In this document: positions 255 to 2,235 of the stretch, piece by piece | How the letters are laid out: each line of letters begins with the position of its first letter | Position numbering within the stretch: position 1 is the stretch's first letter | Assembly: GCA_023250955.1 (NCBI GenBank) | Contig: JAHEZQ010000025.1 | Location: forward strand, 1 to 62,635 | Reading direction: 5' to 3' | Length of the DNA: 62,635 nt | Source: Melioribacter sp. | Lineage (GTDB): Bacteria > Bacteroidota > Ignavibacteria > Ignavibacteriales > Melioribacteraceae | Notes under the pieces: model-generated | Seen by the model: only the letters and a program-made list of their open reading frames with translations | What the model was told of the DNA's origin: nothing | Database searches by the model: none | Made by a program: the position numbers and the translations under genes

Positions 255-872
255 TTACTCTTCTTCTGATTCGTATTTCTTGATTAATTCTTTCTCAGCA
301 GAAAGGAATTCTTTCAGTCTTCTTTCAATTTGGGTTTTTCTTTCGACCATATCGTCAACACTTTGCTGAGCGTGATAAATTAATTTTTCTGCTTTTAATT
401 TTGATTCTTCAACTATTAACTGTGCTTCGCGTTGTGCAGCAATTAATATTTTTTTTGCATCATCTTCTTTCGATTTACCTTTGTTCCCTTCTTTTTGTAA
501 TAGCATTACTTCTGACAAAGCCATACCAAAAAATGCTATTGCACCAAGCATAATGTTACGAAGAACATATAAGATCATATTTTCCACAAGAAGGTTGCTC
601 AATCCAAAATATTCGCTGAACAGCGAAACAAGGATAACACTTACAAATACTGAAGCAACAATAACCGCAAATACAACTTTACCGCCATGATTATAACTAA
701 GTGTTTTATTTATCAACCAACCGCAAGCAAACGAAAAAACTGAAAGAACAAACCATACAGAAAAATTCTGATATCCGGCTTTAAATAGATCCGTGCTTAA
801 GAAGTTGGATGCAAAAATAATAACGGCAAGCAATCCCGGTGTTGCATAATAAATTGATTTTTTCTCAATCAC
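255..872 (-). CDS. Membrane protein with cytoplasmic DivIVA-like coiled coil, unknown function
   Basis: 205 residues, not a family I recognise. Four hydrophobic segments are visible (about residues 8-28, 38-55, 64-88 and 98-120), followed by a charged Ala/Glu/Lys-rich coiled coil from about residue 130 to the end. That coiled coil carries the pattern E-x2-L-K-x3-L-I-x2-A and then ERK-x2-I-x-R-L-K, which also occurs in the DivIVA protein encoded two genes upstream. The start ATG overlaps the punA stop by 4 bases, so the two are probably translationally coupled. Location in a divIVA operon suggests (inference) a membrane partner of the DivIVA scaffold. Rotor or stator b-subunit-like helices could also look like this. 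Confidence 0.75.
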   Translation of the reverse strand: MIEKKSIYYATPGLLAVIIFASNFLSTDLFKAGYQNFSVWFVLSVFSFACGWLINKTLSYNHGGKVVFAVIVASVFVSVILVSLFSEYFGLSNLLVENMILYVLRNIMLGAIAFFGMALSEVMLLQKEGNKGKSKEDDAKKILIAAQREAQLIVEESKLKAEKLIYHAQQSVDDMVERKTQIERRLKEFLSAEKELIKKYESEEE

Positions 873-1690
873 AGTTTTTTTATAACCTCTTTCATTATTA
901 AAGTCATTTTTGGTTCAGCTGCCATTGCTGTAGCAATAATTTCTTCAACCTTTGCCGGTTTCAATGCATCAGGGAAACATTCATCAGTTATTATACTTAG
1001 ACCAAGAACTTTCATCCCCATATGATTGGCTACAATATTTTCCGGAATAGTTGACATTCCAACAACATCGGCACCTATAGCACGTAAAAATCTGTATTCA
1101 GCTTTTGTTTCAAGGTTCGGTCCCGGTACAGCAACATAAACACCCTTCTGAACTTTAACTTTATTATCAAGTGCAACTTGTTCTGCTAACTTTATCAACT
1201 CTAAATTATAGGGCTCGCTCATATCTGGGAATCTTGGTCCAAATGAATCTTCATTCTTTCCAATGAGCGGATTATCACCTAATAAATTAATATGATCCAC
1301 CATCAGCATAATATCTCCGCGTTGATATATCGGGTTCATACCGCCGCAAGCATTCGAAACAAGTAAAGTTTTAACTCCAAGAAATTTCATAACACGAACA
1401 GGATATGTAATTTGTTGCATTGTATAACCTTCGTAGAAATGAAATCTACCTTGCATAGCAACAACATTTTTCCCGCCGATCTTCCCAAAAATTAATTTAC
1501 CTTGATGAGATTCAACAGTAGAAAGTGGGAAATGAGGTAATTCGGAATAATCAATTTCATGTTCAACGGAAATATCTTTAACTAAACCACCAAGACCGGT
1601 TCCAAGAATAATTCCAACTTCATAATTTTTATCAGTTTTCTTTCTGATGACTTCTAATGTTTCATTGATCATTTCTATTAGAGCACTCAT
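869..1690 (-). CDS. punA: Purine-nucleoside phosphorylase, trimeric type
   Basis: Phosphorolysis of purine nucleosides to free base and ribose-1-phosphate, in purine salvage. 273 residues, normal for the trimeric PNP/MTAP superfamily. Visible motifs: phosphate-binding GTGLGG (residues 30-35), SHQGK (61-65), QGRFHFYEGY (80-89), NACGGMNP (113-120), GPNLETKAEY (190-199) and VGMSTIPE (210-217). The purine-contacting segment reads TDECFP with Asp at 236, where mammalian inosine/guanosine PNP has Asn (Asn243 in the human enzyme). MTAP-type enzymes also carry Asp there, so the substrate range may differ. It overlaps divIVA upstream by 4 bases and the membrane-protein gene downstream by 4 bases. Confidence 0.92.
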   Translation of the reverse strand: MSALIEMINETLEVIRKKTDKNYEVGIILGTGLGGLVKDISVEHEIDYSELPHFPLSTVESHQGKLIFGKIGGKNVVAMQGRFHFYEGYTMQQITYPVRVMKFLGVKTLLVSNACGGMNPIYQRGDIMLMVDHINLLGDNPLIGKNEDSFGPRFPDMSEPYNLELIKLAEQVALDNKVKVQKGVYVAVPGPNLETKAEYRFLRAIGADVVGMSTIPENIVANHMGMKVLGLSIITDECFPDALKPAKVEEIIATAMAAEPKMTLIMKEVIKKL

Positions 1691-2235
1691 AAAAGTTTCT
1701 CCAGAATATCATCAACATTTATATCACTTTGTTCTTCTTGATTATTCTGTTCCTTAGGAATTTCTTTTTTCTTAGGACGTGTATCAATGTTCTGGACATT
1801 CATCTCAAGTAAGCTCGATTGAGAATCAATCAAAGCTTTAATACGTGCAATTAATAATTTTCTTTCTTCGCGGAGTTTCAAAACAGAATCACGGACAGAA
1901 TTAGCGCTCTCTTTTGCTTTTTCAATTAATTGCGCGGATTTGAGTTCCGCTTCCTTAATCATCAAAGCAGTTTGTTTCTTTGCCGAATCCACTGTTTTTG
2001 AAGTTGATTCTGTTTGGTTCAACATTGCCTGTTGAAGATTTTTTTCAATTCTTTTAAACTCTTTTAATTGTTCTTCCTGGCGGTCAAGTTCATTCTTAAG
2101 CTTTTCATTTTCATTTTGAAGCTGTTCAAACTCATCCGATAACCGTTCAAGGAAATTATTTACCTCGTCACGATCATAACCACGGACGCTTTTGTTGAAC
2201 TCTTGATTCTTGATTCCAAACGGGGTGAATTTCAT
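1687..2235 (-). CDS. divIVA: DivIVA-domain coiled-coil protein
   Basis: Scaffold family that senses membrane curvature and recruits division or growth factors. 182 residues. Residues 3-45 match the DivIVA N-terminal domain: TPFGIKNQEF, then GYDRDEVNNFLE, followed by long heptad coiled coil to about residue 150 and a polar tail. A GGGAAC ribosome site lies just before the ATG. It sits 12 bases after yggS and is followed by punA (4-base overlap), the membrane coiled-coil protein and ileS. In Firmicutes yggS (ylmE), divIVA and ileS also lie together, supporting the call. Its actual role in this Gram-negative-type cell is unknown. Confidence 0.88.
   Translation of the reverse strand: MKFTPFGIKNQEFNKSVRGYDRDEVNNFLERLSDEFEQLQNENEKLKNELDRQEEQLKEFKRIEKNLQQAMLNQTESTSKTVDSAKKQTALMIKEAELKSAQLIEKAKESANSVRDSVLKLREERKLLIARIKALIDSQSSLLEMNVQNIDTRPKKKEIPKEQNNQEEQSDINVDDILEKLL

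Follow-up and report, generated by a model that had tools for sequence, protein, structure and literature searches.

A four-helix membrane protein with a DivIVA-type C-terminal helix in the divIVA gene cluster of Ignavibacteriales

What is a membrane protein whose C-terminal helix resembles the coiled coil of DivIVA, a scaffold protein of cell poles and division, doing one gene away from divIVA itself? The question is raised by one end of a contig of Melioribacter sp. (JAHEZQ010000025.1, assembly GCA_023250955.1; the whole stretch analysed, 62635 nucleotides, is called the window), where yggS, divIVA, punA, a gene for a 205-residue membrane protein (here labelled MP) and the 5′ end of ileS follow one another on one strand (Table 1). 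A preliminary description of this locus proposed that MP ends in a DivIVA-type helix by which it could anchor the DivIVA scaffold or co-assemble with it, and it left the purine phosphorylase gene between the two unexplained. Profile comparisons and their controls support the presence of a DivIVA-type helix at the C-terminus of a membrane protein with four helices and, judged on sequence profiles, the resemblance is above chance at the level of the family. What MP does with this helix is a matter of more tentative reasoning, in which a mixed assembly with DivIVA is the reading that we favour.

The preliminary description had started from two letter motifs shared by MP and its neighbour, and this part of the case did not last. 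The first motif, E-x2-L-K-x3-L-I-x2-A, is indeed present in both proteins (MP residues 156–168 and DivIVA residues 95–107), but the second, ERK-x2-I-x-R-(I/L)-K, occurs literally in DivIVA only (ERKLLIARIK, residues 124–133), as its MP counterpart, ERKTQIERRLK (residues 177–187), is one residue longer and the pattern fails. The heptad-sized gap said to separate the motifs is a spacing difference of 8 when taken from coordinates, whereas it is exactly 7 in the profile alignment of the MP tail with DivIVA, in which the ERK letters are offset by one residue. Literal sharing was rejected as the chief evidence, as the first motif is found in just one of 80 MPs and five of 75 DivIVAs of the order, and in none of 13 DivIVAs of sister orders. 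The letters thus seem mostly to be a coincidence of one MP/DivIVA pair, for which BLASTP gives a weak match (E 0.032), and because they are partly luck the case for kinship rests on the families.

In Pfam, DivIVA (PF05103) is the sole match of the window MP (21.8 bits, E 2e-4, profile positions 75–127 of 131). When MPs, the window's included, were compared with Pfam, DivIVA was matched by 26 of 29 at E <= 0.1 and by 44 of 58 at E <= 0.01, the latter in a comparison with 24736 families of which the members matched 11. The stalk families reached at most 4/29 and 3/58 (ATP-synt_B 3 and 3, V-ATPase_G_2 4 and 2, RNase_Y_N 2 and 1; HrpE 4/29), and YtxH was not among the 11. The profile PF05103 was also run over 57 relatives, in which MP, identified by its place beside divIVA, was second among the matches listed in 43 genomes and first in one (G045, in which no DivIVA was found); in 11 genomes another protein stood ahead of MP or MP was not among the matches listed. 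Its scores were 14–27 bits, mostly 20–26, at profile positions of about 75–127. The same part of the profile was matched with 14.8–17.7 bits by proteins of about 140 residues that we take to be YtxH-domain proteins, and an RNase Y-like protein reached 24.8 bits in G033 and in G050. The matches of approx. 143 residues had been considered as ATP synthase b, a candidate that we rejected, since the 15 that were read are YtxH-type proteins. In the opposite direction, a profile of MP was searched against 395 genomes of the phylum and matched 40 genomes of the order and, at E <= 0.001, 38 outside it. The best match in 31 of these 38 was DivIVA (13/14 in the same class and 18/24 in other classes); the seven exceptions were G339 (YtxH-like), G093, G183 (DivIVA second match), G204, G269, G272 and G291, the last being the only one that matched on the membrane part of MP. 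The profile also detects the genome's own DivIVA in four of the 40 genomes of the order.

Profiles were also compared directly. Using a tail profile of 113 MP sequences, near-duplicates of the same genomes included, hhalign returned 96.3% over 67 columns with the 13 sister-order DivIVAs, 93.6% over 79 columns with 108 DivIVAs of the order and 92.8% over 63 columns with seven further sister-order DivIVAs chosen independently of the MP profile. The controls gave 73.5% (15 YtxH proteins, 39 columns), 71.7% (four RNase Y, 37 columns) and 9.8% (AtpF, where ATP synthase b was represented by a single sequence), and with 92.8–96.3% set against 9.8–73.5% the tail of MP is of the DivIVA C-terminal coiled-coil type. 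Among the families compared, DivIVA alone stays aligned across the tail's second half, and each alignment with a DivIVA set carries a 7-residue gap at one common place, the MP tail being the shorter; that with the order's DivIVAs has an additional 18-residue gap ahead of the shared part. HMMER alignments place an insertion of exactly 7 residues in 13/13 sister-order DivIVAs and in 9/19 DivIVAs of other classes, and 73 of the 75 DivIVAs of the order, as local matches, have no insertion there, the other two having an insertion of 3. A pattern at the C-terminal end was found in 75/80 MPs and in 14/20 sister-order DivIVAs (12/13 of the first set and 2/7 of the second), and in none of the 75 DivIVAs of the order, the 19 of other classes, 15 YtxH proteins or 1530 unrelated open reading frames (ORFs); such patterns were composed after both families had been viewed and these counts are descriptive rather than independent tests.

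Single proteins scored against the MP tail profile had best-domain medians of 27.8 bits for the 13 sister-order DivIVAs, 27.6 for those of other classes, 19.3 for those of the order and 16.9 for YtxH. Reversed copies gave medians of 15.2 for the sister orders (highest 20.0) and 13.1 for the order (highest 25.3). Pattern-preserving shuffles gave about 1 bit, with highest values of 12.7 and 20.2, and the lowest of the 13 sister-order DivIVAs, at 23.5, lies above all of their own reversed copies (<= 20.0) and shuffles (<= 12.7). A background set was excluded as a control, as it held relatives of MP (highest 95 bits), and the scores of the 13 sister-order and 19 other-class DivIVAs are flattered by their having been chosen through a match to the MP profile.

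Ahead of the tail, MP has a predicted membrane domain. The AlphaFold model (58 sequences; mean pLDDT 84, pTM 0.59) has helices at residues 6–22, 34–58, 60–84 and 95–204, the last being a predicted single helix in which the fourth transmembrane helix runs on into the tail. Across 58 members the N-terminus and loop 2 are net positive and loops 1 and 3 net negative, and because of this positive-inside pattern both ends, including the tail, are placed in the cytoplasm, where DivIVA is. The N-terminal motif RGYDxxEVD, which precedes the dimerizing coiled coil in the DivIVA family according to excerpts of PMC9858780, is absent from the MP sequence and from the MP family alignment. The membrane domain had no Foldseek match at E <= 0.001, and a sequence search of MP against solved structures returned nothing below E 0.15. 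Using VIA-align, the four-helix domain matched many permease domains of the MacB/FtsX/LolC/HrtB type, the best with a Z of 10.4 (rmsd 4.6, 127 aligned), which lies under the caution level of Z ~13 for helical bundles; we regard a likeness of the modelled domain to the transmembrane part of MacB/FtsX-type permeases as a weak lead. The Pfam family Acyl_transf_3 was matched by 11/29 and 16/58 MPs at the two thresholds given above, which we take as matches of membrane helices. A diverged MP, in which a long acidic linker precedes the tail, was also seen at L078 (6645–7424, 259 residues; homologue in G050), and it adjoins a longer DivIVA of 229 residues.

Table 1. Genes at the end of the window and the parts of MP and DivIVA that were compared (MP, the 205-residue membrane protein)
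Feature	Position	Strand	Basis or remark
yggS, pyridoxal phosphate (PLP)-binding protein	2248–2931	−	TIGR00044, 206 bits; starts the conserved cluster
divIVA, 182 residues	1687–2235	−	PF05103, 106.2 bits, E 1.6e-30; TIGR03544 DivIVA domain
DivIVA C-terminal coiled-coil segment, residues 76–146, counterpart of the MP tail	1798–2010	−	hhalign
punA, purine-nucleoside phosphorylase	869–1690	−	PRK08202 equivalog, 377 bits
MP, 205 residues, GTG start	255–872	−	N-in/C-in four-helix domain plus cytoplasmic helix (predicted)
MP predicted transmembrane helices (four), residues 10–121	510–845	−	Hydropathy and charge (58 family members), AlphaFold helices
MP DivIVA-like tail, residues 138–205	258–461	−	Pfam DivIVA match at residues 138–190 = 303–461
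ileS 5′ end, truncated at the contig end	1–219	−	TIGR00392, 80 bits over 73 residues

The gene order is a stable one. Among the 80 named loci, the best of 118 and every one chosen for holding MP (from Melioribacter, Stygiobacter, Ignavibacterium and other Ignavibacteria), yggS-divIVA-punA-MP-ileS is complete in 74 and the other six are interrupted by contig ends, so that the order suggested for the window holds across Ignavibacteriales, a little-studied Gram-negative order, and the loss of gene order that would have refuted the preliminary description was not observed. The divIVA-punA and punA-MP junctions of the window are 4-base overlaps, which is also the commonest spacing in the named relatives (48/77 and 43/78 respectively), and the spacer between MP and ileS has a median of 30 bases in these relatives. 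Two of the 74 complete loci have ileS in two pieces (L131 and L142, with 307+716 and 939+97 residues), by frameshift or assembly fault, and in L113 and L114 two additional genes (313 or 307 residues, and 269 residues) lie between MP and ileS. An MP match was present in 38 of 39 near relatives, the exception being G013. In G013, and also in G047, neither MP nor divIVA was found in the PF05103 scan; a joint loss of the two in G013 was considered and rejected, as the segment is probably missing from both assemblies, in which ileS is without a match at E 1e-60 and punA is represented by distant paralogues only.

Within our sample MP is restricted to the order, and among the 20 of 317 unmatched genomes that were listed none is closer than class level. 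In the other orders of the class, 20 of the 23 DivIVA-bearing genomes were inspected, and no MP match was found among the ORFs listed downstream of punA in the 18 with punA in the stretch. The first 13 of these loci have yggS, divIVA, punA and ileS in order; the spacer between punA and ileS is short in 12 of them, and in one (L225) other genes intervene. Four of the seven later loci (L276, L277, L281 and L282) have punA and then ileS, whereas punA is absent from the stretch in two (L278 and L279) and ileS is absent in L280. In addition, yggS, divIVA and punA are together in several genomes of other classes. Most likely, punA was beside divIVA first and MP is a newcomer between punA and ileS; the phosphorylase gene would then separate divIVA from MP because yggS-divIVA-punA-ileS is the older arrangement, as found in the MP-less sister orders. 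A precursor of MP in the punA-ileS interval of the sister orders was also looked for and none was seen, the small two-helix ORFs there resembling another family. These carry GKLPGDI (L222, 7101–7301; L276, 6130–6360; L281, 5900–6139; L282, 6139–6378) and are presumably DUF2905-like.

The DivIVA of the window is itself a member of the DivIVA family, with VRGYDRDEVN at residues 17–26 and a score above the PF05103 cut-off, and its family profile matches the N-terminal domains of DivIVA and GpsB in the PDB. Its model consists of a helix (residues 22–148) followed by a linker and a C-terminal helix, both modelled with low confidence. DivIVA of Bacillus subtilis inserts a phenylalanine residue, F17, into the membrane immediately before RGYD, as described in the available text of PMC3924036; the window DivIVA has no phenylalanine before RGYD but a valine. 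At this position the 75 DivIVAs of the order have V (34), L (14), M (12), F (8) or I (3) before R, or L (1) or K (1) before K, two are without the pattern, and nearly all of the residues are hydrophobic. A weakened lipid-binding loop, for which MP would compensate as an anchor, was rejected because the residue at position 17 does not track the presence of MP: phenylalanine is found in 8/75 of the order, yet the MP-less sister orders have mainly methionine (8/13). Following the low-confidence linker, residues 171–182 (1690–1725, − strand) form a short terminal peptide, DINVDDILEKLL, which is little changed in those DivIVA sequences of the order that were printed and is lacking from MP. At the same end, many DivIVAs from other orders and from other classes have VDEILKKL, IDDILxxLE or IRRILxDLD, and this type of peptide is a possible binding motif.

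How might these features fit together? DivIVA binds the membrane through an N-terminal loop with F17, and its dimers become tetramers through a C-terminal four-helix bundle, according to the available parts of PMC3924036 and PMC12585849. We propose that MP is a half-paralogue of DivIVA that would keep a relative of the C-terminal assembly helix, with the four-helix membrane domain substituting for the N-terminal lipid-binding domain. Its tail would insert into the four-helix bundle that joins DivIVA dimers, and part of the DivIVA lattice would then be held by an integral membrane protein in addition to DivIVA's own lipid-binding loop. A mixed bundle is the simplest use of such a protein because MP has the C-terminal part of DivIVA without the N-terminal membrane loop. 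As an account of the whole locus we put this close to an even chance, and co-assembly of MP with DivIVA, to which the first-noted resemblance had led, is similarly finely balanced; that anchoring DivIVA is the purpose of MP is tentative and rather more doubtful. More speculative again, and in our view unlikely, is an extended version, in which MP as an integral-membrane half-paralogue in mixed DivIVA bundles would use a permease-like domain to link the lattice to the envelope or the division machinery.

A number of results weigh against the mixed bundle, and some of them also favour a different explanation, namely convergence on a generic membrane-anchored, A/E/K-rich stalk helix of the YtxH, ATP synthase b or RNase Y kind, with an unrelated function. 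The 21.8 bits of the window MP are below the Pfam gathering cut-off of 28, because of which MP is not a member of the DivIVA family, and among its relatives no match listed at the place of MP exceeds this cut-off (highest 26.6). In NCBIfam, the first match of the window MP is ATP synthase b (E 3.3e-4), followed by PRK12705 ‘hypothetical protein’ (9.3e-4), V-ATPase E (0.0019), HrpE/YscL (0.0038) and only then DivIVA_Wag31 (0.016). Outside the order, 142 genomes possess a DivIVA (182 minus 40, at E <= 1e-6), and the MP profile detects it in just 32 of them. The YtxH median of 16.9 is near that of the order's DivIVAs (19.3) and surpasses it when whole sequences are scored (22.3 compared with 19.3), and the reversed DivIVA that reaches 25.3 belongs to the order. 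It is the repetitive A/E/K first half of the tail that contributes most of the score, and the second half by itself gives weak medians of 5.3 for the sister orders, 1.1 for the order and −2.0 for YtxH. In addition, the seven sister-order DivIVAs picked by a DivIVA match alone score 9.8–22.7 (median 15.8), and because of these lower scores we reduced slightly our estimates both of homology and of the mixed bundle. The lack of conservation of the literal motif points the same way. However, each of these seven DivIVAs beats its own reversed copy (1.4–13.1) by 5 to 14 bits, they share with the other DivIVA sets the exact 7-residue gap and the alignment to the end of the tail that no other family compared displays, and DivIVA is preferred across whole genomes (31/38) and across 24736 Pfam families (44/58). 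Generic coiled-coil similarity alone, the other outcome by which the preliminary description would have fallen, therefore appears improbable, even though YtxH rivals the order's DivIVAs on score, and we consider convergence unlikely. The MP tail and the C-terminal coiled coil of DivIVA probably share common descent.

Common descent does not by itself make the two proteins partners, and we consider it about as unlikely as convergence that MP, although its tail derives from a divIVA copy, assembles only with itself and forms its own membrane scaffold beside DivIVA without binding to it. In a tree of the shared helix, which has few columns and midpoint rooting, the MP tails group in a clade (95/91) separate from that of the order's DivIVAs (100/98), and this tree does not show MP to have been copied recently from the divIVA of the order itself. 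The MP tail is nearer to the 13 sister-order DivIVAs than to the neighbouring DivIVA, its would-be partner, and the contrast in the C-terminal pattern (75/80 MPs compared with 0/75 DivIVAs of the order) is what might be seen if the partners no longer matched. The strict linkage to divIVA is nevertheless easier to explain if the products meet. Distances of MP and DivIVA also show a partial correlation of 0.34 (p 0.011), although this co-variation is not specific because the value for MP and PunA is higher, at 0.44; for the tail and the C-terminal part of DivIVA the figure is 0.23, against 0.16 for the tail and YggS. That MP is a mere passenger of the operon, functionally on the ileS side and near divIVA for co-expression only, is very improbable: MP does directly precede ileS in nearly all loci, in a cluster that mixes unrelated housekeeping enzymes, but its commonest junction with punA is the 4-base overlap as opposed to the 30-base median spacer before ileS, and its tail resembles the product of a gene of the same cluster.

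Among known systems, DivIVA is the closest, as MP residues 138–205 align to its C-terminal coiled coil and end, best with the 13 sister-order proteins. Unlike DivIVA, MP has neither the RGYDxxEVD lipid-binding domain nor DINVDDILEKLL, possesses four membrane helices and is seven residues shorter in the shared part. The nearest coiled-coil competitors in these genomes are the YtxH proteins, which have about 140 residues, a single membrane helix and a helix of repetitive A/E/K sequence. Whole-length similarity to these, with a single membrane helix, is not seen in MP, which has four; they align to 39 columns of the tail and were not beside divIVA in the 15 places read. Few studies have dealt with DivIVA of Gram-negative bacteria, as stated in the available text of PMC7186360, which describes a yggS-proC-divIVA operon in Bdellovibrio. 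There too a Gram-negative divIVA is clustered with yggS and an enzyme gene, and ProC binds DivIVA in a two-hybrid assay; no DivIVA-tailed membrane protein is described in the available part of that report. An open literature search, judged largely from titles and listings, found no paper on a membrane protein of this kind. If the mixed bundle is correct, a conserved transmembrane partner would offer a direct way into the function of DivIVA in Ignavibacteria. A further parallel is GpsB, which, like MP, shares a single half with DivIVA; the available text of PMC3983041 calls it a DivIVA paralogue. The half is not the same one: excerpts of PMC9858780 give GpsB the N-terminal motif of DivIVA and a coiled coil, whereas MP has no DivIVA-like N-terminal domain and carries the C-terminal half, a mirror case. 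On this interpretation the DivIVA family would also have evolved by exchange of its membrane-binding end, the reverse of what is seen in GpsB.

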